Positions 18,135 to 37,121 of a DNA stretch of 64,000 bases are shown here, piece after piece. Origin of the DNA: Spirochaetota bacterium (GTDB lineage: Bacteria; Spirochaetota; UBA4802; UBA5368). The stretch spans positions 1-64,000 of the forward strand of contig DATIKU010000048.1 in assembly GCA_035477215.1 (NCBI GenBank), read 5' to 3'. Positions within the stretch are counted from its first letter, which is position 1. Every line of letters begins with the position of its first letter. The notes under the pieces are model-generated. The model was not told where the DNA came from, made no database searches, and saw only the letters and a program-made list of their open reading frames with translations. Made by a program: the position numbers and the translations under genes.

Positions 18135-18304
18135 TTTATTGATTTTATCGCATCCCGCCCCATTCATCGATCACATCGCGTGTGCGGCGCGTCTGACGTG
18201 TTGCATAATCGGATTTTCGGGCGCCCCCGCCGAAGGCGATGGGACTTTACGACAATCCATGGATGTGCTAAAGATCTATCAATTACCATACTGTGGAGAA
18301 CAAA

Positions 18305-19495: not shown

Positions 19496-19567
19496 ACCGT
19501 ATTTCATTCTTGACGAAATGAGCTTTCTGGACGACAATAACGGCATACAGGAGTCGGGAAACAGGCC

Positions 19568-20713
19568 ATGGCTATCACATCGCGATTCAGGCGCGGGATT
19601 CTACGCCCGCCAGGCGGCGTTGCGGTTATCGCCGCCATTGCGCTCTGTTTCATCTCCGTCCTGACGGCAATGCCGGCGGCGGCCGAGACCAAGGCCCCGG
19701 CATATCCCGAGGGGAAGGTAATACTGTATAATTTCCAGAATACAGGCAAGGCCGGCGAGTACGGTTATTACTCGTATATCATCCCCGATTCGATCACGAC
19801 CGAGCTCAAGCGGTCGAAGAAGTACGAGGTGCGGTCCTTCCCCGTTATTTTCGAATATGTGGAACCTTCAGCGCCCGAGGAGGTGAGAACAAACCGTATC
19901 CGCCTCCTCGCCGACCGGGGAAAGGAATTCAACGTGGACTTCGTCGTGACCGGCTCCTACTATGTGGAAAACCGGACGATCTTCATAAAGACGCAGATCT
20001 TCGACGTCCATGAGCAGAAGATCATGGATATCCACGAGACGAGCGAGGAATTGGGCGCGATGCTCCTTGTGATCATCGACCGGCTGTCGGAGAAGATCAA
20101 CACCGAGCTTCAGAAGGGTGTGGCGGTCAAGGCGGCCAGGACGGCCTCCTCTCCGTACGCTCCCTTCTACAACGCCTTCAACGGGTTCAGCTTCGGCGCC
20201 TCAACCGGGATTGTCAACATACACGGCCCGTGGGGTGACATTTACGACAAGACCACGTCGGCCTCCCTCTACATCGGCTATGATCTGGCCACATCCGGTT
20301 CGGCCAAGAGCGTTCCCGTGCTTCGCGATATGGCGGTCTCGCTGCAATACGATTACATGTCGGCCGACACCCGGGACAGCAACGAACCGACACGATCGAT
20401 TTTCACCCTTCGGTCCTTTTACCTTAACGGAACGTACCTGTACCGCATGGAAAGCTTTTTCGCCCTCACCGCGGGAGCGGGAGCGGGCCTGGCCATCTCG
20501 CTTGTTGAAATCCCCGGCGCGGATGTAAACGGCCCGGCGGAAATACTCGACTCGCGCAGGTCTTACGACCCCTGCCTTAACCTTTCGGTGGGTGCGCGGT
20601 TCATTTTCTCGCGAATCGAGTTTGGCGCGGGACTGGCCTACCATCGCATTTTCTTCGCCGACCGGGGCATGGATTACACGCTGATTTATTTCAGCTTCGG
20701 CTACCTGCTGTAG
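19568..20713 (+). CDS. Exported protein: CsgG/TolB-like N-domain plus probable beta-barrel
   Basis: The product is 381 residues. A signal peptide (about 1-41, AAIALCFISVLTAMPAAA) is followed by a domain of about 150 residues (GKVILYNFQNTG, FVVTGSYYVENRTIFIKTQIFDV in part, LSEKINTELQ) of the CsgG/TolB-N kind. The second half (about 195-381) has the alternating small and aromatic residues of outer-membrane strands (ASLYIGYDL, RSFYLNGTYLYRMESF) and ends YFSFGYLL. I infer a periplasmic domain joined to a barrel. It separates argJ from argD-argF-argG. The function is unknown; it has no enzymatic motif and is probably unrelated to arginine synthesis. Confidence 0.7.
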   Translation: MAITSRFRRGILRPPGGVAVIAAIALCFISVLTAMPAAAETKAPAYPEGKVILYNFQNTGKAGEYGYYSYIIPDSITTELKRSKKYEVRSFPVIFEYVEPSAPEEVRTNRIRLLADRGKEFNVDFVVTGSYYVENRTIFIKTQIFDVHEQKIMDIHETSEELGAMLLVIIDRLSEKINTELQKGVAVKAARTASSPYAPFYNAFNGFSFGASTGIVNIHGPWGDIYDKTTSASLYIGYDLATSGSAKSVPVLRDMAVSLQYDYMSADTRDSNEPTRSIFTLRSFYLNGTYLYRMESFFALTAGAGAGLAISLVEIPGADVNGPAEILDSRRSYDPCLNLSVGARFIFSRIEFGAGLAYHRIFFADRGMDYTLIYFSFGYLL

Positions 20714-20825
20714 CCGTCACCTGCCTGTTTTTTAATTGACATTAAGAAAGAATGTCCGACTCTGATATACACGATCGGGGTTTTGTCCCCGACGTTTTTA
20801 TTTTATGCCGTCTCAGGATAACATT

Positions 20826-22040
20826 ATGACTTCGAAAAGGCTCAGGGAAATAATGGAGAGCGACCACAAGCACCTCTTTCAGAATTACGGTGAACGTCTT
20901 CCGGTCTGTTTTACGGAAGGAGAAGGCTCGCTCCTCTTCGACCAGGACGGCAGGCGCTATATCGATTTTTTCGCCGGCATAGCGGTAAGCACCCTCGGCC
21001 ACGCGCACCCGGGGTTCGTAAAAAGGCTGCAGGCCCAGCTCGAACGGCCGATTCACTCGTCCAACTGGTTTTTCAACAGGGAACAGGCCGCCGCGGGCAA
21101 ACTGGTGGGAGAGCTCTCCTTCCCGGGAAAGACCCTCTTCGTCAACAGCGGGACCGAGGCGAACGAGGCCGCGCTCAAGCTCGCGCGCGCCCACGGACAG
21201 TCGATCTCGCCCGAAAGGTACGAGATCCTTTCCTTCGAGGGCTCGTTTCATGGCCGCACCTTCGGCGGAATGTCCGCCACGGCGCAGGAAAAAATACGCA
21301 AGGGATTCGGCCCCCTGGTTCCGGGCTTCACCTATCTGCCCTTTAACGACCTTTCGGCCGCCGAGCGCGAGATCGAGCGCAACGGTCGCGTGTGCGCGGT
21401 CATCACCGAACTCATCCAGGGCGAGGGCGGCATTCGTATAGCGGACAGGGATTTCATCAAAAATCTCGCCGCGATGTGCGCAAAGCGCAATATCCTCGTC
21501 ATCATCGACGAGGTGCAGACCGGTGTCGGGCGGACCGGTCGCGCCTTCGCGTACCAGCACTACGGCATCGAGCCCGATATCATCACCCTGGCCAAGGGCC
21601 TGGGCGGCGGCGTGCCGGTCGGAGCGCTCCACGCGCGCAAAGAGCTGGCCCCGCTTTTCGGCAAGGGCGTCCACGGCACCACGTTCGGAGGCAACCACCT
21701 GGCGTGCGCCGCGGTCGAATTCGTATTGAAAGAGATTAAAAAGCCGGCGCTCGCCAAAAACGTCTCCACCGTCTCGATCTTCATATTTGAGCGGTTGCGA
21801 GCCATGAAGGCGAAGTATCCCCAGATCAACGAAGTACGGGGCATGGGCCTGCATATCGGCATCGAGCTTTCCGTACCGGGGATGAACATCGTCAAAAAAG
21901 CGCTCTCGTCGGGCCTCATCATCAACTGCACGGCGGACAAGGTGATCCGGATAATGCCCCCGCTCACCATTTCCATGAAGACCGTTAGGGAAGGCATGAA
22001 AATCCTCGAAACAATTTTAGCGCGCGAGGCCAAAGCGTGA
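20826..22040 (+). CDS. argD: Acetylornithine aminotransferase ArgD
   Basis: The product is 404 residues of the class III PLP aminotransferases. It converts N-acetylglutamate semialdehyde to N-acetylornithine with glutamate as amino donor. The PLP site shows LVIIDEVQTGVGRTG and, further on, TLAKGLGGGVPVGA with the Schiff-base lysine. Other marks are NSGTEANEAALKLAR and HGTTFGGNHLACAA. The ATG at 20826 is chosen because AGGA lies seven bases before it, while the ATG at 20805 has no ribosome binding site. Its stop overlaps the argF GTG by 4 bases. Confidence 0.95.
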   Translation: MTSKRLREIMESDHKHLFQNYGERLPVCFTEGEGSLLFDQDGRRYIDFFAGIAVSTLGHAHPGFVKRLQAQLERPIHSSNWFFNREQAAAGKLVGELSFPGKTLFVNSGTEANEAALKLARAHGQSISPERYEILSFEGSFHGRTFGGMSATAQEKIRKGFGPLVPGFTYLPFNDLSAAEREIERNGRVCAVITELIQGEGGIRIADRDFIKNLAAMCAKRNILVIIDEVQTGVGRTGRAFAYQHYGIEPDIITLAKGLGGGVPVGALHARKELAPLFGKGVHGTTFGGNHLACAAVEFVLKEIKKPALAKNVSTVSIFIFERLRAMKAKYPQINEVRGMGLHIGIELSVPGMNIVKKALSSGLIINCTADKVIRIMPPLTISMKTVREGMKILETILAREAKA

Positions 22041-22975
22041 AAATCCCGAAACTCGCATCAAAGGACCTGGTCTGCCTCACCGATCTCTCTGTACGTGAAA
22101 TGCTGAGCATCTTCGATCTTTCGTCACGACTGAAAAAGGACCTCGCGGCGGGAAAACGCACGCCGGTGCTTGAAGGAAAGACCCTGGCGATGATCTTTGA
22201 AAAGAATTCCACCCGCACGCGCGTCTCGTTCGAGGCCGGGATGTTTCAGCTCGGCGGCTGTGCCCTTTTCCTGAGCAAGGACGACATTCAGCTCGGCCGC
22301 GGCGAGACCGTCGCGGACACGGCGCGTGTTCTGTCGCGCTATGTCGACGGCATCATGATACGGACCGACCTGCATTCCAAGGTTATGGAACTCGCTAAAA
22401 CCGCGACCGTTCCGGTCATAAACGGCCTGAGCGACCTCTTCCACCCGTGTCAGGCGCTGGCGGATTTCTTTACCATTTACGAACGCGAAAAGAAACTGGA
22501 AAAGGTCAGGCTCGCCTACGTCGGAGACGGAAACAATATGGTCCATTCGCTCCTCATCGGCGCGGCCATGCTTGGCATGGACATCGCGGTCGCGTGCCCT
22601 AAAGGGTATCAGCCCGACAGCCATGTAAGCGCCCTGGCCTTCCAGATTTCGTCGCGGACCGGCTCCAAGGTAACGGTGACGACCGACATCAATCTCGCCG
22701 TGGAAGGGGCCCACTACCTCTACACGGACGTGTGGACCAGCATGGGAATGGAAAAGGAGGCGAATCGGCGCAGAAAGGCCTTCGCTGATTTTAAAATCAC
22801 CCGGAAGGTCTTGCGGAAGTGCGCCGACCGGTGCGCGGTGATGCACTGCCTGCCCGCCCATCGCGGGGAGGAGATCGATGACGACGTCATCGATTCCGAC
22901 TGCTCGATCGTCTTCGACCAGGCCGAGAACAGGCTCCACGTGCAGAAGGCGCTGCTCTGCGCGTTGATGCAGTGA
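22037..22975 (+). CDS. argF: Ornithine carbamoyltransferase ArgF
   Basis: The product is 312 residues. It makes citrulline from ornithine and carbamoyl phosphate. Carbamoyl-phosphate contacts FEKNSTRTRVSFE and HPCQALADFFTIYE are present, with the ornithine-side motif CAVMHCLPAHRGEEI near the C-terminus. The start is GTG, inside a GTGA overlap with the argD stop, which indicates coupled translation. A second enzyme of this fold (aspartate carbamoyltransferase) is excluded by HCLPAHRG. argG follows after 76 bases. Confidence 0.95.
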   Translation: MKIPKLASKDLVCLTDLSVREMLSIFDLSSRLKKDLAAGKRTPVLEGKTLAMIFEKNSTRTRVSFEAGMFQLGGCALFLSKDDIQLGRGETVADTARVLSRYVDGIMIRTDLHSKVMELAKTATVPVINGLSDLFHPCQALADFFTIYEREKKLEKVRLAYVGDGNNMVHSLLIGAAMLGMDIAVACPKGYQPDSHVSALAFQISSRTGSKVTVTTDINLAVEGAHYLYTDVWTSMGMEKEANRRRKAFADFKITRKVLRKCADRCAVMHCLPAHRGEEIDDDVIDSDCSIVFDQAENRLHVQKALLCALMQ

Positions 22976-23051
22976 CAACACCGCATAACCGGACAAGAAA
23001 ACGGCGGGAGCGCCCGCGGGCGGCCCGGGCCATATACGGAGGGAGAACGCC

Positions 23052-24255
<1,204 letters not shown>

Positions 24256-24266
<11 letters not shown>

Positions 24267-25200
24267 TTTTTTAAGACGGCTCGAAGCGGGCTACTTCGCG
24301 CGTTGCGGCGACAGCGCACTGCGCGCGGCGGCCTGGAGCGGGCTTTGCCGACGCTACCCTCCATCCATCGAGGACTGCGCCTTCACCGAAAAAACTCCGC
24401 CCTCCACCATTTTCGCGCGCGACGCGGGCGACCTGGGTATCGCCATCCTCTGGATCGTCCAGGCCGCGCTGGTGCGCCCCATCGCCGCCGAAACCGGTTT
24501 AACCGAAAACCATGCACCTGCCCCGGCGTCGATTGGTGCGCTCGCCCATTCCGAGAACCCGGCACACCCCATGCGCGCGCTGATCGAAGGGCGTTCGCTC
24601 CGCCTTTCGGGTGAGAAAAAATACATTACCGGGGGGCTGGACGCTGATTTTCTCCTCGTCACCGCGCTCGACGAAAGCGGTGAGACACGGCGCATCTTTC
24701 ACCTGCCGGCGGGCCTTCTGCCGGCCGGCGCGCTCGTGGAGCTCGAACTGGGGATGCTGCGAACCACGAGTCACGCGCGGCTTTCACTAACGGATTTCAC
24801 CCTTGATGAGGCCTTCCCGCTTCCGGCCGACGGCCGTGCGGTGAATCGGGCGATCAAGCGCTGGGGGATGGTGGAGCGCGCCCTCATCCTCGAGGCGTAT
24901 ATCGGGCTGTGCATATACCTGGTACGGCGGCCTGATATCTCAGGCATCATGGGACCGGCCACCGCGGAACGCCTCGGGAGGCTCCTCGATGAGCAGGCCA
25001 AGTCGCGCCGCGCCCAGGTCGATGCCGCCATGAGCGGTGAACGGATAGACCCCCGTGGCGTCGACATCGTCGAAGTCGCCAGGGCGGCGAAGCACGCAGC
25101 CGAAAGGGCCGGGGCCGCCAACCTCCCGGCCACGGAGCTTGCGCGTATTGACGACCTGAAACTGGCCCGACTGTTCGCGCCCCGTCCTGAAGACCGATAA
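24256..25200 (+). CDS. Degenerate acyl-CoA-dehydrogenase-like protein
   Basis: The product is about 314 residues. A middle-domain signature of acyl-CoA dehydrogenases is recognisable ([23 protein letters not shown]; the core is GEKKYITGG). The N-terminal part ([17 protein letters not shown]) fits the helical domain. The C-terminal half is short and lacks both the GxxGY segment and the catalytic glutamate motif (YEGTSEIQ in the complete paralogue at 16938). The start is uncertain: a GTG at 24256 overlaps argG by 11 bases, and an ATG at 24226 would overlap by 41. It may be a structural or assembly paralogue or a decaying gene. High use of alanine and arginine resembles the neighbours, so recent transfer is not indicated. 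Confidence 0.6.
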
Positions 25201-25302: not shown

Positions 25303-26211
25303 ATGTTCAAGGACGTTGAATCGACAATAAAGGCGCTCGAAAGCCAGCAGTACATCTGCTCGAAAGAGATCGCAACCACAGTTTTTCTCGCAATGAAGAT
25401 GGAAAAGCCCGTACTGGTCGAGGGGCCCGCCGGCGTGGGTAAAACCGAGCTTGGCAAATGCGTGGCATTGGCGCTCGGCATGGACCTCCTCCGGCTCCAG
25501 TGCTACGAGGGACTTGACGAGGCAAAGGCGCTCTACGAGTGGGAATACGCGAAACAGCTCCTCTACACCCAGATACTCAAGGACAAACTCTCGGCGCTCC
25601 TGGAGGGGGAAAAGACGCTTTCGGACGCGGTCGAGAGGCTCACCACGGAAGAGGACGTATTCTTTTCCGAGAAGTTTCTCATCCCCCGCCCCATACTGAA
25701 ATCGATCACCGCGAAAAGGCCCACACTGCTGCTCATCGACGAGATCGACAAGTCCGATTCGGAATTCGAGGCGTTTTTGCTCGAGGTGCTTTCCGACTTT
25801 CAGGTGTCCATTCCCGAAATCGGCACAATCAGGGCCGAGCGCAAACCCTTCGTGCTTCTCACGTCCAACAACGCGCGCGAGATGTCCGACGCGCTCAAGC
25901 GCCGCTGCCTGCACCTGTATATCAATTTCCCGTCACAGAAGCAGGAGGAAAGGATCGTCACGATAAAGGTGCCGGAGTGCGGCGAAAGCCTGATAGGCGA
26001 GCTCGTTGCCGCCGTGCACCGGATAAGGGAGCTGCCACTCAAAAAAGAGCCCAGTATCAGCGAGACCCTGGACTGGGCCAAAGCTCTGACTCTCCTCGGC
26101 TGCGACGTGTTGCGCCGCGACCTCGCCGTCGATACGCTCAACTTCCTTTTAAAATACGAAAAAGACATCGAGCTGGTAAAAAAGCACTCAGGCGAGGTGT
26201 TCGTGCAGTAA
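25303..26211 (+). CDS. MoxR-type AAA+ ATPase
   Basis: The product is 302 residues. Walker A is EGPAGVGKTELGK (about residue 47), Walker B is LLLIDEIDKSD and sensor 1 is VLLTSNNAREMSDAL, all in the order found in the MoxR branch. MoxR ATPases act as chaperones with VWA-domain partners and insert metals or activate complexes. The gene starts 28 bases upstream of the CoxE-like VWA gene, which is the standard pairing. The inserted region after Walker A (LYEWEYAKQLLYTQIL) is the CoxD-like feature. Its target here is unknown; no carbon-monoxide dehydrogenase genes are present. Confidence 0.9.
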   Translation: MFKDVESTIKALESQQYICSKEIATTVFLAMKMEKPVLVEGPAGVGKTELGKCVALALGMDLLRLQCYEGLDEAKALYEWEYAKQLLYTQILKDKLSALLEGEKTLSDAVERLTTEEDVFFSEKFLIPRPILKSITAKRPTLLLIDEIDKSDSEFEAFLLEVLSDFQVSIPEIGTIRAERKPFVLLTSNNAREMSDALKRRCLHLYINFPSQKQEERIVTIKVPECGESLIGELVAAVHRIRELPLKKEPSISETLDWAKALTLLGCDVLRRDLAVDTLNFLLKYEKDIELVKKHSGEVFVQ

Positions 26212-26239
26212 GCGACTTCCGCGGGCGAGGCGGGAAGTC

Positions 26240-27607
26240 ATGGTACGACGATCAAGCGTTATGCCCTATGCCACCGAAGAACAGCGACGCGGAACGCAAA
26301 AGATCCTCGAGTTCGTCAGGATACTTAAAGATGCGGACGTGCGGGTCTCTCCGTCTGAGGCGATCGACGCGTTCGGCGCACTCGGCCACGTCGACTTCAC
26401 CGACAGGGCCCTTTTTAAACAGGCACTCGCGACCACCCTCGTCAAGGACTACACCGATATTCCAATTTTCGAACGCTGTTTCAGCGAATTCTTCGACAGG
26501 CGGCCGGCTGACGAGATGGACAGTCCGCCGAAAGTCCTCCGAGACACCGGTGCGGACGAAAACGGCCCCTCCTCCGAAAACCTCCGCGAGGCTGAGGACG
26601 CGATAGACGCTTTTCTCGAAAGCCTGCCCGAGGAAACCCTGGCAACGCGCTCCATGCGTGACATTGTGAACATCATTCTTGACGATGAATCGCTCGCGTC
26701 CTCGTCCGGAGCGCTCGGCATGATGATCATGAACGCGCGCACGCGCCGGGGGCGGTCCGAAAGCGCCGGGGATGAGGAGGAAGACGATGCCACGACCAGG
26801 TTCATCATCGGCCGCGTTCGCCGAAGGATAAGGGAAAGGTACATCGGAAAGTCCATACGCAGGCGCGAGGAATATCTTCTCAATAAATATATTTATCAGT
26901 TGAAGCCCGCCGAGGTCCAGGAGATGAGGGAACTCGTCAAACGATTCGGCCAGAAACTTAAAAACAGGATATCCCTGCGCAAGAAACGCGTAAAGCACGG
27001 CGGGCTCGACGTCAAGCGGACGTTCCGAAGCAACCTGGCCCATGGCGGAATCCCCTTCAGGCTTTTTTACCGCGACAAGAAGATCGACCGGCCCCAACTC
27101 GTGGTGCTGTGCGATATCTCGAGCTCGGTAAACCAGTACTCACGCTTCATGCTGCTCCTCACCTACACGCTGCAGGGGCTGTTCTCGAAAGTCCGAACTT
27201 TCGCCTTTATCAGCAACATGGTGGAAATAACGCCGCTCTTCATGGAAATGGACCCCGAGCGCGCGCTCAACTCGATCTTCACCGACACCGACTTCACCTA
27301 CGGCTTCGGAAGCAACTATGGCAGGTGTTTCGACCAGTTCGTCGAAGGCTACAGCGAATCGCTGGGGAGAAAGACCACGGTGCTGGTGCTCGGCGACGCG
27401 CGGAACAATAACCAGGACCCGGGGATCGACTCGTTCATGCGAATAAAGGAGTCCTCGCGCAACATCTTCTGGCTCAACCCGGACAGGCGCCACCTCTGGG
27501 ACTGGAGCGACAGTATCGCGGGCCTTTACGCCGCGCACTGTGCCGAGATGAAAGAAGTGAATAATTTTCTGGACTTATCTGAATTCATCGATAAGCTCTT
27601 CAAGTGA
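26240..27607 (+). CDS. CoxE-like VWA-domain protein, partner of the MoxR ATPase
   Basis: The product is 455 residues. The C-terminal half is a von Willebrand factor A domain of the CoxE type. The metal site DxSxS is present in LVVLCDISSSVNQYSRF, and the later GDARNNNQDP and FGSNYGRCFDQF segments fit the fold. The N-terminal 200 residues are charged and helical with no known domain. The gene follows the MoxR gene by 28 bases and ends 1 base before a Cache histidine kinase ATG, so the kinase is probably in the same operon. The ATG at 26240 has GAGGCGGGAAG upstream; MPYATEEQ at 26261 is an alternative. Confidence 0.87.
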   Translation: MVRRSSVMPYATEEQRRGTQKILEFVRILKDADVRVSPSEAIDAFGALGHVDFTDRALFKQALATTLVKDYTDIPIFERCFSEFFDRRPADEMDSPPKVLRDTGADENGPSSENLREAEDAIDAFLESLPEETLATRSMRDIVNIILDDESLASSSGALGMMIMNARTRRGRSESAGDEEEDDATTRFIIGRVRRRIRERYIGKSIRRREEYLLNKYIYQLKPAEVQEMRELVKRFGQKLKNRISLRKKRVKHGGLDVKRTFRSNLAHGGIPFRLFYRDKKIDRPQLVVLCDISSSVNQYSRFMLLLTYTLQGLFSKVRTFAFISNMVEITPLFMEMDPERALNSIFTDTDFTYGFGSNYGRCFDQFVEGYSESLGRKTTVLVLGDARNNNQDPGIDSFMRIKESSRNIFWLNPDRRHLWDWSDSIAGLYAAHCAEMKEVNNFLDLSEFIDKLFK

Positions 27608-27608
27608 T

Positions 27609-29540
27609 ATGAAACCCAGGATACAGGCGAGCCTTAGCATAAAACTGATCTTCAGCCTCGTTTCGGTGGTGCTCATCATCGGCTCCGCCTCCATTACCAT
27701 CGGCCTGCGAATCATCAACAACAACATCGTGGGACAGGCCTACGAGCAGGTCCAGAACGACCTCAAGACCGCGCATTACATTTACGAAGACAAGATTCAA
27801 ATAATCAATCTCTTCATGCGCCACCTTTCGCTGCTCGCCTACCTCCACGACGCCGTAGAGTATAACGACAGGAGGCTTCTCGTCAACAAGCTCCAGGAGG
27901 TCAAGCGGGAGCTCGGTCTCGACATCCTTAACATAGTCGATCCCGCCGGCAGGGTGATCGTCAGGGCGGGCAATCCGGCCAGGACGGGCGACAGTGTTTC
28001 GGACGACAAGTATGTCAGTTACGTCCGGACCAACCTCAAATCCTGTTATGGTTCGGACATCATTTCCCGCGAACACCTGGTCCGGGAAGGCGGGGACCTC
28101 GCCAACAGGGCGTTCATCGAATTCATTCCCACGCCCATGGCTCGAAAAACCGATGCCACCTATGAGGACAGGGGGCTCGTCCTCAAGGCCGCCTCGCCCA
28201 TGATCCGCGACGGCAGGCTTATCGGAATCATCTACGGAGCGCGCCTGATCAACCGTAACTACGACATGGTCGACCAGATCAAGAGCCTCGTTTTTAAGGA
28301 AAAGAAATACCATGGGTTTGAATACGGCACGGCGACGATTTTCCTCGATGACCTCCGCATTTCGACAAATGTCCTCAGGGAGGACGGGGTGCGCGCCATC
28401 GGCACGCGCATTTCCGAGGAAGTCTACAAGAAGGTGTTCGAGCGCGGGAATCTGTGGCTCGACAAGGCCTTCGTGGTCAACACCTGGTATATTTCCGCCT
28501 ACAGCCCCATTTACGACCTGCACCGCAAGGTGATCGGCATACTCTACGTCGGCATCATAGAAAAAAAGTTCAACGACATCAAGAGGGAAACCACCGTTCT
28601 TTTCCTTGCCATCATCATCGTGACCCTCATAATCGCCGTCGGGCTTTCGATCTATCTCATCCAGAATTTCCTGCACCCCGTCAACAATCTGGTCAACGCG
28701 TCGAAGGAGATCGCCGATGGCAACTACAATATTCAGATCCCTGTCGACTCCAGGGACGAGTTGGGCTATCTCTGCAAGACCTTCAATTCCATGGTCTCCG
28801 CCATCGTCGAGCGGGACAATCTCCTCAAGGAGGATACGCAGAACCAGATAGTACAGTCGGAAAAGCTGGCCTCGCTGGGGAAGCTCGCCGCGGGCATCGC
28901 CCACGAGATCAACAATCCCCTTACCGGAGTGCTCACCTACAGCTCCATCCTGCTCGAGGATCTCAAGGACACCGAGCATAAAGACGACCTCGAGGTGATC
29001 GTCAACGAGACTCTGCGCTGCCGCAAGATCGTCCGCGAGATCCTCAACTTCGCCAGGGAAACGCGAATCGAGAAGGAGCGCTCGAACATAAACAAGGTCA
29101 TCAACGAAACGCTTTCGCTGCTCGAAAAGCACGTCAACTTCCAGAACATCAGCATCGTCAAGGACTTCGACTCCGCCGTGCCCGACATGGAGGTCGATAT
29201 CAACCAGATTAAATCGGTCGTCAACAATCTGTCCCTCAACGCCTCGGATGCGATGCCGGAGGGCGGCACGCTTACCATCCGAACAGGCTTCGATTCCATA
29301 CAGAACGCCGTGATCGTCGAGTTCATCGACACGGGGCATGGCATCAGCGAGGAGAACATAGGCAGGATATTCGATCCCTTTTTTACGACCAAGCAGACCG
29401 GAAAGGGCACCGGACTGGGTCTTGCCGTCACCTATAGCGTCATCAAACGACATAACGGCTCCATCACCGTAAAAAGCTCGACGGGAGAGGGGACTACATT
29501 TACCATTGTTTTACCCGTGGCGCAGGGCGGGTCCCAGTGA
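27609..29540 (+). CDS. Membrane sensor histidine kinase with Cache and HAMP domains
   Basis: The product is 643 residues. A membrane helix (about 9-31) and a second one (about 332-357, LFLAIIIVTLIIAVGLSIYL in part) bracket a periplasmic domain with two Cache-like tails (SPMIRDGRLIGIIYGARL and SPIYDLHRKVIGILYVGI). Then come a HAMP segment (about 358-410), the dimerisation histidine in AAGIAHEINNPLTG (His 432) and the ATP lid NNLSLNASDAMPEGG, DTGHGISEENI, GKGTGLGLAV. It should autophosphorylate on sensing a small extracellular molecule. Its start lies 1 base past the VWA gene. The cognate receiver may be the hybrid protein encoded 182 bases downstream. Confidence 0.93.
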   Translation: MKPRIQASLSIKLIFSLVSVVLIIGSASITIGLRIINNNIVGQAYEQVQNDLKTAHYIYEDKIQIINLFMRHLSLLAYLHDAVEYNDRRLLVNKLQEVKRELGLDILNIVDPAGRVIVRAGNPARTGDSVSDDKYVSYVRTNLKSCYGSDIISREHLVREGGDLANRAFIEFIPTPMARKTDATYEDRGLVLKAASPMIRDGRLIGIIYGARLINRNYDMVDQIKSLVFKEKKYHGFEYGTATIFLDDLRISTNVLREDGVRAIGTRISEEVYKKVFERGNLWLDKAFVVNTWYISAYSPIYDLHRKVIGILYVGIIEKKFNDIKRETTVLFLAIIIVTLIIAVGLSIYLIQNFLHPVNNLVNASKEIADGNYNIQIPVDSRDELGYLCKTFNSMVSAIVERDNLLKEDTQNQIVQSEKLASLGKLAAGIAHEINNPLTGVLTYSSILLEDLKDTEHKDDLEVIVNETLRCRKIVREILNFARETRIEKERSNINKVINETLSLLEKHVNFQNISIVKDFDSAVPDMEVDINQIKSVVNNLSLNASDAMPEGGTLTIRTGFDSIQNAVIVEFIDTGHGISEENIGRIFDPFFTTKQTGKGTGLGLAVTYSVIKRHNGSITVKSSTGEGTTFTIVLPVAQGGSQ

Positions 29541-29722
29541 GACCAGGCGCGTAACCGCCGATGGCGGGCATTTCCACAATAAGTGCTTGAAATTCATCGC
29601 ACCGTGTCGCAGTTTATTCCCGGACTCGGTGTGCCGTCTTCCCCGGCGGCGGGGAACCATAAAACGGCTGCCTGAGGCGGGCGTTCGGGCGCGATGATTC
29701 CGTATCCGGAAAAGGGCATAAA

Positions 29723-30799
29723 ATGGCCATGATAAAGATTCTTATCATTGATGATGAAGAAGTGGTTCTCAAGAGTTCTTTGCGAATTCTCAAGAACGAA
29801 GACTACGAGATCGACACGGCCCCGGCCGGCATCGAGGGTCTCGAGATGGCGAAGAGCAAAAAATACGATATCGTCATCACCGACCTCATGATGCCCAAAC
29901 TCGGCGGAATGGAAATACTCAAAACCCTCCAGAAGGAACAGCCCGATGTTACCGTCATCATCTTCACCGGATACGCCACGGTGGAAACGGCCCGCGAGGC
30001 CCTGAAAAACGGCGCCTTCGACTATATTCCGAAGCCCTTTACTCCCGACGAATTGAGGGAAATCGTTAAAAACGCGATCGCCTCGCGTCAGGACAGCTCG
30101 CATACGCGGATGCTTGACCTCATGTCCATCGTGTCGCACGAATTGAAAAGCCCCATAAGCGTGGTGCACACCACCGCCGAGACGCTCTACAAGGGCTACT
30201 TCGGCAAGCTTGACCCCAGCCAGGAAAAGACGATCGAGACCATCTTGCGCAACTGCCAGTACCTCGAAGACATCATCCGCAACTACCTCGACCTTTCAAA
30301 GATGGAACTTAACAACATAGAGGCCTTCACCCAGCCGATCGACCTGGCGGAGGAGGTCGTGAAGCCGGTTGTGGAACTGCCCGAACACGTCGCAAACATG
30401 AAAAAGATGCCCATTACCACCGACCTCAAGGTAAGGCCCGTAATCAACGGCGATCCGAATTTACTGAAGATACTGGTCACCAATCTTGTCAACAACGCCA
30501 TTAAATACGGCAAACCCGAAACCGAGATCAAGCTGACGCTCGAGGAGAAAGGTGGCGCCATAGCGCTTTCCGTCTTCAACGAGGGCGTTGGAATATCCCG
30601 AGAAGACATAGAGGCAAGGCTGTTTCAGCGCTTCTCCCGACTCAAACAAAAGGGAACCGAAGGTGTAAAGGGAACGGGCCTGGGGCTTTATATATGCAAA
30701 ACCATAGCGGAAAAGCACAATGGCACCATAGCCGTTGAATCGGAACAGGGGAGCTGGGCGAAATTCACCGTGACCCTTCCCGTCTTTAAAAAAGAATAG
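29723..30799 (+). CDS. Soluble hybrid: response-regulator receiver plus histidine kinase
   Basis: The product is 358 residues with no membrane segment. The N-terminal receiver (1-120) has the acidic pair Asp10-Asp11, phosphoacceptor Asp54 (IVITDLMMPKLGG) and Lys104 (YIPKPFTP). It runs straight into a kinase core with His139 (SIVSHELKSPISVV), NLVNNAIKYGKPE, FNEGVGISREDIE and GTGLGLYICKTIA. A phosphorelay protein that both receives and sends phosphate without a DNA-binding output is implied. It probably takes phosphate from the Cache kinase encoded just upstream. The final target is not visible, though the STAS gene follows. The start has GGAAAAGGG upstream. Confidence 0.92.
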   Translation: MAMIKILIIDDEEVVLKSSLRILKNEDYEIDTAPAGIEGLEMAKSKKYDIVITDLMMPKLGGMEILKTLQKEQPDVTVIIFTGYATVETAREALKNGAFDYIPKPFTPDELREIVKNAIASRQDSSHTRMLDLMSIVSHELKSPISVVHTTAETLYKGYFGKLDPSQEKTIETILRNCQYLEDIIRNYLDLSKMELNNIEAFTQPIDLAEEVVKPVVELPEHVANMKKMPITTDLKVRPVINGDPNLLKILVTNLVNNAIKYGKPETEIKLTLEEKGGAIALSVFNEGVGISREDIEARLFQRFSRLKQKGTEGVKGTGLGLYICKTIAEKHNGTIAVESEQGSWAKFTVTLPVFKKE

Positions 30800-30918
30800 C
30801 CGGTGGATTTTTGTTCTTTACATGACCCCGCACGGGTCTGATACATTGTTCGGGGGCCGGTTTGACCGGGCCAGTGACCGCGGTTGAGCCGCGATTTCAA
30901 CGAAAATATTTTTTTGCG

Positions 30919-30948
30919 TTGACATGTTCACTCCGGAAAAAGTAGTCT
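30919..30948 (+). promoter_or_regulatory. Candidate promoter of the STAS gene
   Basis: A consensus TTGACA (30919-30924) is followed after 18 bases by TAGTCT (30943-30948). It gives a leader of about 70 bases before the ATG at 31025. Two GC-rich inverted repeats (GGCCGGT.. and CGCGGTTGAGCCGCG, about 30855-30895) lie just upstream; they could end the kinase transcript but lack a clean T-tract. Confidence 0.45.
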
Positions 30949-31024
30949 TTCTGCTTATGCCGGAATGCGGCCTTACCGTAAAATAAAGGGAATCATCTTT
31001 TGATGGGGCGATTTGGAGGGGCTG

Positions 31025-31348
31025 ATGGAAATAGAATTCAAGGACCTGGGGGAACATAAAATAGTGGAGGTAAGCGGCGAAGTGGACCTCTATAACGTCA
31101 GCGAGTTGAAGAAGGCGCTTTTCAGCATAACTGACGGCAAGCATTCCAGCGTAATAGTCGACCTCAAGAACGTCAATTACATGGACTCGTCGGGGATCGG
31201 CGCCCTGGTGGCCGGCCAGAAAAAGATGAAAGCCCACAGCGGGAAATTCGCTCTTGTCAACATACACGACGACGTTTTGAACATTCTCAAGCTCGCCACG
31301 CTCGACAAGTTTTTCAAGATATTCGAAAGCGAGGATGAGCTGCTGTAG
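31025..31348 (+). CDS. Anti-sigma-factor antagonist (STAS domain)
   Basis: The product is 107 residues, a single STAS domain of the RsbV/SpoIIAA family. The phosphorylatable serine lies in NYMDSSGIGALVAG (around Ser55). In its unphosphorylated form such a protein binds an anti-sigma kinase and frees a sigma factor. The ATG at 31025 has GGAGGGG upstream. It is convergent, 6 bases apart, with a gene for a SpoIIE-type phosphatase that could dephosphorylate it. No RsbW-type kinase or sigma-factor gene lies in the window, so the switch target is encoded elsewhere. Confidence 0.93.
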   Translation: MEIEFKDLGEHKIVEVSGEVDLYNVSELKKALFSITDGKHSSVIVDLKNVNYMDSSGIGALVAGQKKMKAHSGKFALVNIHDDVLNILKLATLDKFFKIFESEDELL

Positions 31349-31354
31349 CCGCCG

Positions 31355-32992
31355 TCAGGAGACCCTCTTCATAACCAGCATCGTCATGTCGTCATGTTGC
31401 GGTGCCGCCCCCTGGAAGGTCGAAACGTCTTCGACTATCCTTTCGACTATTCCCTGAGCGTTAAGATCGCTGCTGGCCATGAGCAGCTTCTGCAGGCGGG
31501 GGCTGCCGTATTCCTCTCTTTTTTCGTTACGCATCTCGGAAACACCATCCGTATATAACACTACGATATCACCCGGATCGAGCCGCACCTTCGCTTGCGC
31601 GTATTCAACGTCCTCGGTTATTCCAATGGGAATGCCTTCCAGGTTCGTCACCGTGCACCTGCCCAGCGATGCCCGATAGCAAAACAGCGGTCCGTGCCCG
31701 GCGTTCGAGAAAGACAGCTCTCCCGTTTCGCGGTTGTAAATCATGAAGAAAAGCGTGGCGAACTTGTCCACGGCGAAGTCGGCGCTGAGGGCGTCGTTGA
31801 TCGAACGGACGATGGTCGCGCAGTCCACACGTTTATTGTTCTTGACCGAGTTGGTGAACACGGTGCGTATCATGACCATCACGAGGGATGCGGGAACCCC
31901 CTTGCCCGAAACGTCGCTGATAAGGGCCCCCACCCTTGTGTCGCTGATATCACTGTAATCAAAATAATCGCCTCCCACTCCCTTCGCCGCGCGAGTGAAA
32001 CCCTTTATCTGGATGCCCGTCTTCTCGTAAAATCCCATGGGATTGAGCCCCTCCTGGATTTCCTTCGCCAGTTCGAGCTGCTCCTCCATGATCCTTGATT
32101 CGATCTCCAATTCCTTGGCTTTTTTCAGTTTCTCCGTCATCATGTTAAAATCCTTGGCGAGAAGCCCCAGCTCATCGGACCTGTTGATGTCGATTTTATA
32201 TTCCAGGTCGCCCGTTGAAATTATCGCGGCCCCCTCGGAGAGTTTTCTGATCGGCTTGATCGTCACGCTGGCAAGAATAAACGATCCTGCGATCGCCGCG
32301 GCGAGAAAAAAGACGGCGATTACCATGATGTTCCGGGTGACCTCGGCGATCTGATCACGGATGATCCGGTCGGAAAACCCCATTCGGACCGAGGCGATCC
32401 TGTTTTTAAACAGGGTATGGAGCACCGGACTGGAAAAATCATATATGATGCCTCCCTTTTCGACCGGGTCCGGAAAGTCGAGCATGAGAGGGCGCTCGGT
32501 CTCGGCGTATTCCTTCGCTTTCCGCGTTATTTCATCATCCTCCATATCGCTTCCGTTTTTCTCTGGATCGAAGTTCTGTATGATCCTTCCGTTCGGATCG
32601 AAGATATAGACGTAGCGGATCGACGGGATCTTCTGAACGTTACGAACGGCGGCTATCAGCGCGAGTTCGTCCTTCGCGCTGATCGATTCCTGGGCCGTAT
32701 TGGTGAGGTGCTCGATCTCGCGCTCGGCGAATTTAATGATTTCGGCCTTGAGAAGCGCGCTTTCCGTGCGGATAAAATAGAGCGTCATGATGATGATGAC
32801 AACTGATACGAGCGTGATGATCGCCAGGGAGAACTTCATCCTCAGACCGAACCCCACCTTCGGTCCCTCCCGGCGCGCGGCCGCGTCTTTCCCGGCCCCA
32901 CCTTTTCCTTCCCGTTTTTTCGCGCCGGGACCATCCTTGACCGCCTCGGGACGAGTGTCGCCGGTTTTTTTCTTTCTGTCCTCTGCGCCCAT
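31355..32992 (-). CDS. Membrane-bound PP2C (SpoIIE/RsbU) serine phosphatase with HAMP domain
   Basis: The product is 545 residues. A basic, low-complexity N-terminal tail (about 1-45) leads to a membrane helix (SLAIITLVSVVIIIMTLY), a periplasmic sensor region of about 150 residues, and a second helix with a HAMP region. The SpoIIE phosphatase domain (about 320-545) has metal-site aspartates in GVGGDYFDY, ISDVSGKGVPASL, VLYTDGVSEM and QHDDMTML. It should dephosphorylate a STAS antagonist, most simply the convergent one at 31025. The start is among GTG 32998, ATG 32995 and ATG 32992; 32992 has the best 5-base spacing to GGAAGG. It overlaps the TPR gene's stop by a few bases only in the longest form. 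Confidence 0.93.
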   Translation of the reverse strand: MGAEDRKKKTGDTRPEAVKDGPGAKKREGKGGAGKDAAARREGPKVGFGLRMKFSLAIITLVSVVIIIMTLYFIRTESALLKAEIIKFAEREIEHLTNTAQESISAKDELALIAAVRNVQKIPSIRYVYIFDPNGRIIQNFDPEKNGSDMEDDEITRKAKEYAETERPLMLDFPDPVEKGGIIYDFSSPVLHTLFKNRIASVRMGFSDRIIRDQIAEVTRNIMVIAVFFLAAAIAGSFILASVTIKPIRKLSEGAAIISTGDLEYKIDINRSDELGLLAKDFNMMTEKLKKAKELEIESRIMEEQLELAKEIQEGLNPMGFYEKTGIQIKGFTRAAKGVGGDYFDYSDISDTRVGALISDVSGKGVPASLVMVMIRTVFTNSVKNNKRVDCATIVRSINDALSADFAVDKFATLFFMIYNRETGELSFSNAGHGPLFCYRASLGRCTVTNLEGIPIGITEDVEYAQAKVRLDPGDIVVLYTDGVSEMRNEKREEYGSPRLQKLLMASSDLNAQGIVERIVEDVSTFQGAAPQHDDMTMLVMKRVS

Positions 32993-32994
32993 CA

Positions 32995-34914
32995 TCACCT
33001 TCCTAACAATACCAGACTTTTACGTATGTTGTTCCTCGCCTTTTCGTGGGTCGGATCGATCACCAGCACCTTGCGCCATTCCTCAATGGCCTTGTCGAAA
33101 TTATTGTTTGTATAATAATTGATTCCGTTATAATAATAGGTTCGCACGAGCGTTTTCTGCTTATCGGTAAGACCACCCCTTTCCGGGGAGACCTCCCCGC
33201 CGCCGAAGCGAAGCTGGGACTCGATCCGGTTCATCGCAATCAGTGATCTGGTATGGTTCGGGTCCCGCGCGGCTACCCAGCGAAAATGGCCAAGGGCCGC
33301 CTCGATATTCCCCTGGCCCCCGCGCTGGTAGAGCTCCATGCCCTGCGCGTAGCGCGCCTCGGTCTCCTGCGGATTAACGCCCGCCGGCGCGGTCCGCTCC
33401 GCCCCCCGTTTCGCCGCGCCGATAAGGTCGTTGATCTCGGGATAGTCGGCGGATATTGACCGTATCAACTCGAATTTTGTCAACGCCTGCGCGAACTTCC
33501 GTCCCTCGAGGAGCTCCTTGCCCTCATCGACGATCTTCTGCGCGAAATCCTGAAAGGCGGCGGGATTCAACGCCAGTTCGCATTTCAAAAGGTGTTCGAG
33601 GGCAATGCGGTTTTTAGGGAATAACCGGAGGATATCATCCCACCGCTTTCTCGACTCGATGTAATTGCCCCTGTCATAGAGCTGCCTGCCGGATACAATC
33701 AGAGGGTTTATTATATTATAATAGGGTGAGTCAACATCGACCACCTCTTCCTCTATATCGCGGATGGCTTCCTTGACCATGACGATGTACTTTTTTGCCA
33801 GTTCATTGCCGGCGTCAAGGACCAGGGTTTTTTCCAGATGGGAAAGCGCTTCCTTATACCGGCCTTCCGAATATGCCAGAAGTCCGTTCTGGAACTCGCG
33901 GTCGATGTTCCGAAGCCGGAGCATGCGCTGCTCCTCGGCGTATTCCTTCCGGAGCCGGCCCAGGCCATCCAGCCGCGCGCGGGTGTCTTTATAGTTACTG
34001 ACCATCGAAAGGGCGTTTTCAAAATCATCCGCCGCCTGGTCGAAGTTCTTTTTGCGTATGTTTTCGATGCCCGACAGATAAAACTGCTCGGCCTGGATGC
34101 GCGCGAGCTCAAGGTTTCTGCTTGATTCGAGGATTTCGTCGATCCGGTCTATGTATCTCTTCGCCTCGCGGTTTTTGATATCGAGTGAAAGTATCTCCTC
34201 AAAATCGTTCCGCGCGTCCTTATATTTCTTCTCCCCGAAAAGGGCAACCCCGGCGGCCAGGAGGAGCTGAATCTTCTCGTATTTGAGCCGGTTCGAAATC
34301 GCCAGCTCCGCGTTTCGCAGGCCCTCGAGTGCAACCGTGTCGTTGGGGACGAAATCGAGCACTTCCTTGTAGTTTGAAAGCGCCTGTTCAAATTTCATGG
34401 ACTTCATGTTTTCGGCGGCGTCCTGCATGAGGGCGATGTAGCGCTGTTTAAGCTCTTCCGACAGGCGCTTTTTGGCAAGCTCGATCCGGAGCTCTTCCTG
34501 AAGCCTGCGCATGTCCTCGCGCATTATCTGCAAATCCGGATCCGCCGGGTCGATCCTGTACGCGACTATGAAATTCGCTATCGCCACGTCCGAGTCGTCC
34601 TTGGCCTTCTGAACGTCCACCGGAAGCTCCTGACGGGCCAGCCGGTAATGAAACCGGGCCTTCTGATAGGCGAGGTCCTTGCGGTGCTTCTCCTCGTAGA
34701 GCATCTCGATCTTTTTCTGGATGTTTTCGTTGTCGGGCTCGATTTCGAGGATGCGCAGCCATTCTCCAAGCGCCCGGGTGAATTCCTTGTTCATGTAAAA
34801 TTCGCTTGCGCGGCGGTCGAGCTCCTCAATGCTTTGAGGCCGCGCCACGGACGACATCATCATGATCGCGATGAGCACAAAAACCGGTGTTTTTTTTCTG
34901 ATTCCGTATCTCAT
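32995..34914 (-). CDS. Exported TPR-repeat protein co-transcribed with the phosphatase
   Basis: The product is 639 residues from the ATG at 34914, chosen because it opens a signal-peptide-like stretch (TPVFVLIAIMMMSSVARP). The rest is helical repeats with the TPR pattern (KEFTRALGEWLRILEIEPDN, in part; EGRYKEALSHLEKTL; NNNFDKAIEEWRKVL). It may scaffold a complex in the periplasm. It sits behind a strong promoter and its stop (TGA at 32997-32995) abuts the phosphatase start, so it could pass an envelope signal to the phosphatase. That link is inference. The longer open frame upstream lacks protein features. Confidence 0.85.
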   Translation of the reverse strand: MRYGIRKKTPVFVLIAIMMMSSVARPQSIEELDRRASEFYMNKEFTRALGEWLRILEIEPDNENIQKKIEMLYEEKHRKDLAYQKARFHYRLARQELPVDVQKAKDDSDVAIANFIVAYRIDPADPDLQIMREDMRRLQEELRIELAKKRLSEELKQRYIALMQDAAENMKSMKFEQALSNYKEVLDFVPNDTVALEGLRNAELAISNRLKYEKIQLLLAAGVALFGEKKYKDARNDFEEILSLDIKNREAKRYIDRIDEILESSRNLELARIQAEQFYLSGIENIRKKNFDQAADDFENALSMVSNYKDTRARLDGLGRLRKEYAEEQRMLRLRNIDREFQNGLLAYSEGRYKEALSHLEKTLVLDAGNELAKKYIVMVKEAIRDIEEEVVDVDSPYYNIINPLIVSGRQLYDRGNYIESRKRWDDILRLFPKNRIALEHLLKCELALNPAAFQDFAQKIVDEGKELLEGRKFAQALTKFELIRSISADYPEINDLIGAAKRGAERTAPAGVNPQETEARYAQGMELYQRGGQGNIEAALGHFRWVAARDPNHTRSLIAMNRIESQLRFGGGEVSPERGGLTDKQKTLVRTYYYNGINYYTNNNFDKAIEEWRKVLVIDPTHEKARNNIRKSLVLLGR

Positions 34915-35581: not shown

Positions 35582-36157
35582 TTACTTAAGGCCGTGCGCC
35601 TTTTCGCCGAAAACCTGGGCGGAGAACTTTTCTATTTTTGTACCCTTCGCCCGCCAGGCGTCCCCGGGCAGGCCCGCCTTGTAACACGTATGCTCGAGGA
35701 AAGTATTCCCGTCCCAGCCACATTCGGTGGCCACCTGGGGAAGGAGCAGCCCGGTTCGGTACCCGGCGCTGATAATAAGCCCGTCGCGACCGATGACGAT
35801 CTCGGATACGTCCCGCACCTCCTCGATCGGGGACATGATGGATATCTCTATATCGATGATGTCGTATTCCCGTTTCCCGAGCGGGGGAAAGCGCGGATCC
35901 TTGAACGCCGAAGCGTTCGCCATGTCGATGATCGTCTCAGGGATTGTCTTTATTCCCTTGATATAGCCTATGCACCCCCGCAGTGCGCGGCCGGCATGCA
36001 GGGTCACGAATGCCCCGCATTTTTCGGCGAAAATCCGGTCGCTGAAATCATCTACCATATCGATTTCGGGCAGGCCCTTTCCGTCGAGCACGTTCCGGAT
36101 GGTCCGTCGCGCCAGTCCGAGCAGCCTGACCTGCTGTTCCCCGCTCAGTTCTATCAT
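35582..36157 (-). CDS. AMMECR1-domain protein (AmmeMemoRadiSam system protein A)
   Basis: The product is 191 residues from the ATG at 36157, which aligns with the usual start of the family (IELSGEQQVRLLGLAR). The family hallmark is present as TLHAGRALRGCIGYIKG (usual form LRGCIG), followed by FPPLGKREYDIIDIEISIMSP. An upstream ATG at 36214 is possible. The biochemical role of this conserved family is poorly known. The partner MEMO gene lies directly upstream (68 bases), as in the three-part AmmeMemoRadiSam set, but the radical-SAM member is not in this window. Confidence 0.87.
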   Translation of the reverse strand: MIELSGEQQVRLLGLARRTIRNVLDGKGLPEIDMVDDFSDRIFAEKCGAFVTLHAGRALRGCIGYIKGIKTIPETIIDMANASAFKDPRFPPLGKREYDIIDIEISIMSPIEEVRDVSEIVIGRDGLIISAGYRTGLLLPQVATECGWDGNTFLEHTCYKAGLPGDAWRAKGTKIEKFSAQVFGEKAHGLK

Positions 36158-36225
36158 CTTTCGTATCCTGTGGTTCCGTCCATGTCCCGGCCCTTTCGTT
36201 ACGGCAGCGACCATTGCTCTTTCAT

Positions 36226-37047
36226 TTATTTAACGATCGCTGCCGCCAGGTAACCGACCACCTGGTCCCTGCCGCCGGCGGTATCGCCCGAATTGGCGTA
36301 CTTGAGCACTTCCACGCGGGACGCTCCCATAAGGCTCCCCAGCTCCATGCCCGTCAGTACCGGCCCCTCTCCACACGCCTGGGACCTGTCGGCGCGGAGG
36401 GAACCGGACAGTTCGCCCGTGTTATAGCGCCTGAGCGTTTCGATGAAGACCCCGTCGATCCTCCTGGCCTCCTCGTACGGATGGTAATGCGAAAGGTCCG
36501 TGGAGATAACGACCACGAAACGTCTTTTTTCTCCCGCCAGGACTTCGGCCATCTCCGCGGCCAGCGAGCGGCAGACCGCAAGGTCCGTCGTCCCGACGAC
36601 GATCGGAACCAGGGTGAATTCGCCGAGCACGCGCTGGAGGAAAGGCACCTGCACCTCGAGCGAGTGCTCGCTGTCGTGCGCCTCGCGGATGAACGTAATG
36701 CGGGACTTCTTTACCAGTTCACCGCCTATCGCCTCGTCGATGGTCGCATCGCCGAGCGGGGTGGCATACAGGCCGGAGGGGATGACCGACGCGCCGTCGA
36801 AACGGGCGCGATGACAGGGCGCCAGCACCACCGCCACCTGCACGCCCAGGCCCTTCAGCAGATTATACGAATACGCCGCGACCGGCCCCGAATAAACGTA
36901 CCCGGCGTGCGGAACGATAAGCCCGAAAAGTTCACCCCCGATACCGACTTTGCCCGCATTTTTAAGATAGGTGTCTATATCGGTCGCGAGTTTCCCGGGG
37001 TTTGAAGGATAAAACGAACCTGCGACCGCCGGCTTCCTGTGCCACAT
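36226..37047 (-). CDS. MEMO-family protein (AmmeMemoRadiSam system protein B)
   Basis: The product is 273 residues. The start at 37047 gives WHRKPAVAGSFYPSNP, the conserved N-terminus, with GGGAGG upstream. Family residues are visible: a His in IVPHAGYVYSGP, another in LAPCHRARFDG, STDLSHYHPYEEA, and the Cys in ACGEGPVLTGM. MEMO is related to metal-dependent extradiol dioxygenases, and human MEMO1 has been reported to bind metal. The bacterial role is unclear. It is linked to the AMMECR1 gene. Confidence 0.9.
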   Translation of the reverse strand: MWHRKPAVAGSFYPSNPGKLATDIDTYLKNAGKVGIGGELFGLIVPHAGYVYSGPVAAYSYNLLKGLGVQVAVVLAPCHRARFDGASVIPSGLYATPLGDATIDEAIGGELVKKSRITFIREAHDSEHSLEVQVPFLQRVLGEFTLVPIVVGTTDLAVCRSLAAEMAEVLAGEKRRFVVVISTDLSHYHPYEEARRIDGVFIETLRRYNTGELSGSLRADRSQACGEGPVLTGMELGSLMGASRVEVLKYANSGDTAGGRDQVVGYLAAAIVK

Positions 37048-37121
37048 ATCAACCTCCCGGTTCGCGGAAAACGCCCTCAGGCCTGCGCAATCCCACGGGC
37101 CTCCGCGCGGGCGCATCCCCT

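Follow-up and report, generated by a model that had tools for sequence, protein, structure and literature searches.

Results

Gene content of the locus

The window analyzed here is a stretch of 64,000 nucleotides on a contig of 125,620 bases (C48), which belongs to a 3.57-Mb genome assembled in 62 contigs whose close relatives are Spirochaetes metagenome-assembled genomes. Seven genes make up the block of interest. Five of these, encoding a MoxR ATPase, a VWA protein, a Cache-HAMP sensor kinase, a hybrid kinase, and a STAS protein, are read from the plus strand, and the two encoding a SpoIIE-type phosphatase and a TPR protein are read from the minus strand (Table 1). The original prediction had listed these seven genes with their positions and orientations, and all were borne out: the gaps of 28, 1, and 182 bases between the first four genes agree to the base, and the domain assignments are backed by Pfam profiles. 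The catalytic motifs of the locus are all intact, including the H-boxes of both kinases and the receiver aspartate. The STAS reading frame most likely starts at the ATG at position 31025, which follows a GGAGG sequence. A search for structured RNAs returned nothing at the gathering threshold.

Table 1. Features of the locus, given in window coordinates.
Feature	Position	Strand	Remarks
Degenerate acyl-CoA-dehydrogenase-like protein	24226..25200	+	Directly 5′ of MoxR
MoxR-type AAA+ ATPase, CoxD-like	25303..26211	+	Pfam AAA_5/AAA; intact Walker motifs
VWA protein, CoxE-like VWA	26240..27607	+	VWA_CoxE 6.8e-38; intact DxSxS (DISSS); N-terminal part helical, uncharacterised
Sensor kinase	27609..29540	+	Pfam sCache_3_3 + HAMP + HisKA + HATPase_c
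Hybrid kinase	29723..30799	+	Pfam Response_reg + HisKA + HATPase_c; cognate neighbour of sensor kinase
Promoter-like element 5′ of STAS	30919..30948	+	TTGACA, 18 bases, TAGTCT; weak in the window's genome
STAS anti-anti-sigma-type protein, 107 aa	31025..31348	+	Pfam STAS 9e-23; DSSG phospho-loop
SpoIIE-type PP2C phosphatase	31355..32998	-	Pfam SpoIIE 2.2e-50 + HAMP; weak Cache match; two transmembrane segments
TPR protein, exported	32995..34914	-	Pfam TPRs; 4-base overlap with phosphatase gene start

Two further gene groups lie on either side of the block. An argJ-argD-argF-argG cluster with a gene for an outer-membrane-like protein (18293-24266) precedes it and is syntenic in much of the order. 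AMMECR1-like and MEMO-like genes, identified by eye and without a profile, adjoin it 3′ of the TPR gene (35582-37116).

Gene order across the Spirochaetota order

The comparison set comprised 46 genomes of the same Spirochaetota order, with loci compared from about 45 of them. Adjacency was counted in those genomes whose contigs permitted the test, and because these genomes are related, the counts do not represent independent events. On this basis, MoxR and VWA genes are adjacent in 32 of 32 genomes, VWA and STAS in 30 of 30 drawn from five families (allowing for kinases in between), STAS and SpoIIE in 39 of 39, and SpoIIE and TPR in 37 of 37. The flanks are looser. The argG-MoxR junction is kept in 15 of 25 genomes and broken in 10, and the TPR-AMMECR1 junction is kept in 11 of 30 and broken in 19, whereas the VWA-STAS junction is interrupted by kinases alone and persists even where the flanks are rearranged. 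Because the flanks rearrange while the block stays together, the cohesion of the block exceeds the regional synteny seen for the arg genes. Gene order at this locus is thus conserved far beyond chance, and the expectation that it would recur in relatives holds.

A TPR-phosphatase-STAS unit present throughout the order

A STAS orthologue was found in 44 of the 46 genomes (both misses are assemblies that are 71-73% complete) and a TPR orthologue in 42, with the misses falling mostly in incomplete assemblies. No comparable match to either protein was found in 13 genomes of other orders. The STAS-only protein scores above the cut-off of TIGR00377, and its DSSG phospho-loop, with the serine typical of RsbV-type proteins, is invariant in all 41 sequences aligned. 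The phosphatase retains the PP2C aspartate motifs (GGDYFDY, SDVSGKG, TDG, and HDD), with the metal-binding aspartates expected of the RsbU-type partner; by both fold and sequence it matches the SiaA, RssB, and SpoIIE phosphatases. It is a two-pass membrane protein in which the segments flank an extracytoplasmic Cache-like domain. Most orthologues of the TPR protein begin with a signal-peptide-like sequence. It is strongly supported that TPR, SpoIIE, and STAS form one unit and, by analogy with characterized systems, this unit is most likely a partner-switching phospho-switch.

STAS also appears to be independent of the genes that precede it. In shuffled sequences TT[TG]ACA would be expected 5′ of STAS in 5.9 genomes and CTTTACA in 0.4; the counts observed are 27 and 17 of 41 genomes, respectively. 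This excess is found alike in VWA-bearing and VWA-less genomes, and nothing comparable was found for either motif upstream of the VWA, SpoIIE, or TPR genes. The excess makes separate transcription of STAS probable. Furthermore, none of the genomes without MoxR-VWA has lost STAS, which directly follows argG in five of them; one of the VWA-less genomes (G037) still has 28 residues of the VWA C terminus between argG and STAS, a relic revealing that MoxR-VWA was deleted in place. A separate observation is that one genome (G033, contig C28, L136) encodes a second STAS protein, about 70% identical to that of the island, without an adjoining SpoIIE or TPR orthologue.

Candidate kinases and sigma factors

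The original prediction noted that an RsbW kinase and a sigma factor are missing from the examined stretch. This is correct, and no RsbW-type serine kinase, a further component of an RsbU/RsbV-type switch, was found among the genes of the locus. Such proteins are encoded elsewhere in the genome, which has several RsbW-like proteins along with 15 matches to STAS and 19 to SpoIIE; sigma-70 region 3 occurs in four of its proteins. Two stand-alone HATPase_c_2 proteins (C47:20450-20869 and C53:32387-32851) are candidate RsbW-type kinases; neither is tied to the island STAS by conservation, and none is universal in the order. A search for a conserved cognate RsbW gave a best candidate family that many STAS-bearing genomes have but some lack, and the assignment of one particular kinase was therefore not possible. 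The candidate on contig C47 stands in a row with genes for a separate STAS protein and a small membrane protein (L137, 7396-8885), and the three make up a self-contained partner-switch set in the same genome.

The MoxR-VWA pair

The MoxR protein, with intact Walker A (GPAGVGKTE) and Walker B (LLLIDEID) motifs, adjoins a VWA_CoxE protein that has the MIDAS residues, as in pairs of the CoxD/CoxE type. MoxR orthologues are 70-94% identical within the order. MoxR-VWA of this type is absent from 11 of the 46 genomes, and where present it always abuts STAS; it was never seen away from it. The predicted structure of the VWA protein is of low confidence (pLDDT 61), and a fold search with it gave just a weak VWA match. 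Among NCBIfam families, MadB is nearest to the MoxR protein, but the scores for both MadB (345 bits against a cut-off of 475) and MadC (158 bits against 600) are too low, and no paper describing this family was found in the literature searched.

No metalloenzyme gene lies beside MoxR-VWA, and the neighbors are an acyl-CoA-dehydrogenase-like gene and the STAS or kinase genes. The nearest plasmid MoxR-VWA pairs, however, adjoin genes of the xanthine-dehydrogenase family, the XdhC family, or methanol dehydrogenase, and both CoxD/CoxE and NorQ/NorD are MoxR-VWA maturation pairs (PMC3471820, PMC4240915, PMC9976466). These neighbors and roles favor a redox complex, which is our best guess for the client. 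About two in three loci have the acyl-CoA-dehydrogenase-like gene directly 5′ of MoxR, and its product is a possible partner of the pair. Two variants were observed in other genomes: G015 (L066) encodes a divergent second MoxR-VWA pair elsewhere, again after an acyl-CoA dehydrogenase gene, and in G006 (L044) the VWA homology is in two pieces about 200 bases apart, such that this copy may be interrupted or diverged at its N terminus.

A kinase pair linked to hydrogenase operons

Most genomes of the order have one orthologue of the hybrid kinase, and outside families f1 and f6 it is located elsewhere. Away from the STAS locus, the Cache kinase usually lies directly 5′ of the hybrid, and the two are a cognate pair. 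Families f2, f4, and f7 include 15 genomes with one or both kinases inside a formate dehydrogenase/[NiFe]-hydrogenase operon that also encodes the formate dehydrogenase alpha subunit, a hydrogenase maturation protease, a single receiver, and further subunits resembling HyfB/NuoL, NuoC/D, NuoH, ferredoxin, and NuoB. Judged by this gene content, the complex would belong to group 4 and be formate-hydrogenlyase-like. No hydrogenase match was found in the 0.9 Mb (60 stretches) sampled of the 3.57-Mb genome that contains the window.

Kinase genes lie between VWA and STAS in f1 and f6 only, with f6 (one genus) having the hybrid alone, and both kinases adjoin STAS only in the window's own family. Five f6 genomes keep the Cache kinase in the hydrogenase operon and have the full hybrid between VWA and STAS; in a further f6 genome (G030), the Cache kinase follows VWA. 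In the hybrid tree, the copies that lie between VWA and STAS in f1 and f6 cluster in a single clade (support 0.84); the Cache-kinase tree has weak support in this part. Because these hybrids group together, the hybrid tree is consistent with one relocation of the hybrid to the VWA-STAS junction. In the hydrogenase operons of f6 genomes (L169-L173), a receiver-only stub comes next after the Cache kinase. It shares about 60% identity with the hybrid's receiver, which gives the impression of a truncated hybrid or a duplicated receiver.

Co-inheritance of MoxR-VWA and the hybrid kinase

When only genomes with a completeness of 90% or more are counted, the hybrid kinase is present in 22 of 22 with VWA and in 1 of 8 without VWA (Fisher 3.9e-6, a test that ignores phylogeny). 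For all 46 genomes, the counts are 31 of 35 and 2 of 11 (Fisher 2.9e-5, likewise ignoring phylogeny). The absences fall on about four separate branches. Few independent events underlie this co-inheritance, and the genomes are metagenome assemblies. VWA-bearing genomes in which no hybrid was detected include G041, G044, and G030, with assemblies 71-85% complete. An exception of the opposite kind is G020 (L159), a member of family f5 that lacks MoxR-VWA and has a kinase pair. Because its kinases cluster with f7 copies, the tree suggests that the pair was acquired horizontally. MoxR-VWA and the hybrid kinase thus co-occur and are lost together, which ties them by inheritance even though they are mostly unlinked physically.

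Discussion

Two proposed modules at one locus

We favor, with moderate confidence, a reading of the stretch as a composite of two modules, namely the TPR-SpoIIE-STAS switch and the MoxR-VWA pair with its kinases. In partner switching, a signal turns on a phosphatase, the STAS serine is dephosphorylated, and its partner is exchanged (PMC8256260, PMC11418112). In the first module, the exported TPR protein and the membrane PP2C phosphatase, with its Cache-like sensor, HAMP, and SpoIIE domains, would read an envelope signal, and the phosphatase would then dephosphorylate the serine of the STAS DSSG loop. A cognate RsbW-type kinase, presumably encoded elsewhere, would phosphorylate this serine, and the state of STAS would set the binding partner of that kinase or of another target. 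In the second module, the CoxD/CoxE-type MoxR-VWA proteins would act as a remodelling pair, co-inherited with a kinase pair whose normal place is the formate dehydrogenase/[NiFe]-hydrogenase operon. MoxR-VWA would most likely help to assemble a redox complex or control its activity, and the kinases might report on the conditions of that complex; in the window's family, they appear to have moved between VWA and STAS. Set against a strict separation of the modules is the unbroken VWA-STAS adjacency, also with rearranged flanks, which argues for some link between them.

One explanation of this adjacency is that it is inherited synteny without functional meaning. We lean against this explanation but regard it as the most credible of the alternatives, since the arg cluster and the AMMECR1/MEMO neighbors are also kept in many genomes. 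Those flanks did break in a sizable share of genomes, however, and the VWA-STAS junction never did, kinases aside.

A second question concerns output. The STAS switch may act on a sigma factor or, as in SiaC-SiaD of Pseudomonas (PMC8457831), on an enzyme. We consider an enzyme doubtful: the best curated-family match and the best fold match of the phosphatase are both SiaA, and no RsbW or sigma gene adjoins, but the STAS protein matches the anti-sigma-antagonist superfamily above cut-off and RsbW-type proteins are present in the genome.

It is unlikely, to our minds, that STAS gates MoxR-VWA, with its phosphorylated or unphosphorylated form binding VWA or MoxR to switch remodelling and the adjacency reflecting a direct complex. 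Such gating would account for the constant adjacency in five families, for the confinement of this MoxR-VWA type to STAS loci, and for STAS identities of 78-98% in VWA-bearing genomes, which are strong relative to neighboring genes. Nevertheless, STAS is nearly as conserved (72-86%) in genomes that lack MoxR-VWA, so the phosphatase and kinase suffice to explain its conserved surface, and the regional synteny around the arg genes is likewise kept in many genomes. Slightly less likely again is the fuller scheme in which the partner-switching STAS would control the MoxR-VWA machine, such that an envelope signal read by TPR and phosphatase toggles redox-complex assembly, with the hydrogenase-linked kinase pair recruited to the locus.

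The original prediction placed all of these genes in one circuit converging on STAS, and its support ends at the conserved TPR-phosphatase-STAS unit; for the kinases, such convergence is unlikely. A circuit in which STAS is the common target of MoxR-VWA, both kinases, and TPR-SpoIIE is improbable: the genes run co-directionally with short gaps, and in f1 and f6 the kinases sit at exactly the VWA-STAS junction, which kinases alone interrupt, but their orthologues occupy hydrogenase operons in other families (f2, f4, and f7), STAS has its own promoter-like element and outlives MoxR-VWA, and no protein able to pass histidine phosphate to the STAS serine was seen in the locus. Routing a histidine-kinase signal to a STAS protein needs an intermediary such as HptB-PA3346 (PMC8256260). 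Because neither an Hpt protein nor a receiver-phosphatase able to serve as this relay was found among the locus genes, we do not assume that the histidine kinases act on STAS.

Comparison with known systems

We found no published account of such a locus in the literature searched. Its parts are of known kinds; the way they are arranged appears undescribed in that literature, as do the TPR-phosphatase-STAS unit found across the order and the joint inheritance of MoxR-VWA and hydrogenase-linked kinases. Within this uncultured spirochaete order, an envelope-to-STAS phosphatase switch, present as a single copy and open to in vitro assay, thus occurs in nearly all genomes. Most MoxR-VWA pairs have, to our knowledge, no known client, so a partner identified by co-inheritance opens one to direct testing. 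The phylogenetic profile provides such a lead, as it ties this orphan chaperone pair to the two-component pair found in hydrogenase operons.

The switch resembles RsbU-RsbV-RsbW and SpoIIE-SpoIIAA-SpoIIAB in combining a SpoIIE-family PP2C phosphatase with a STAS protein that has a phospho-serine loop. Unlike in those systems, the kinase and sigma genes lie outside the locus, the phosphatase and STAS genes are convergent rather than in one operon, and the phosphatase, a sensor that spans the membrane twice, is coupled to an exported TPR protein. SiaABCD of Pseudomonas aeruginosa (PMC7647112, PMC8457831) likewise has a membrane PP2C phosphatase with HAMP acting on a partner-switch protein, and SiaA is the closest phosphatase by curated family and fold; here, in contrast, there is no SiaB-type kinase or SiaD-type cyclase in the locus and the partner is a canonical STAS protein.

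The tandem MoxR and VWA_CoxE domains recall CoxD-CoxE and NorQ-NorD, and the nearest plasmid relatives are at metalloenzyme operons, whereas here a STAS switch rather than a metalloenzyme adjoins and most loci have an acyl-CoA-dehydrogenase-like gene 5′. A MoxR-VWA couple is also part of the MoxR-vWA ternary conflict systems (PMC7159879), but we rejected a defence or conflict role, as the locus has no VMAP, iSTAND, FtsH, or other third component and no PADLOC match. Finally, the formate hydrogenlyase-type group 4 [NiFe]-hydrogenase operons of related families carry the orthologous kinase pair together with a single receiver gene, whereas the window holds the kinase pair only.
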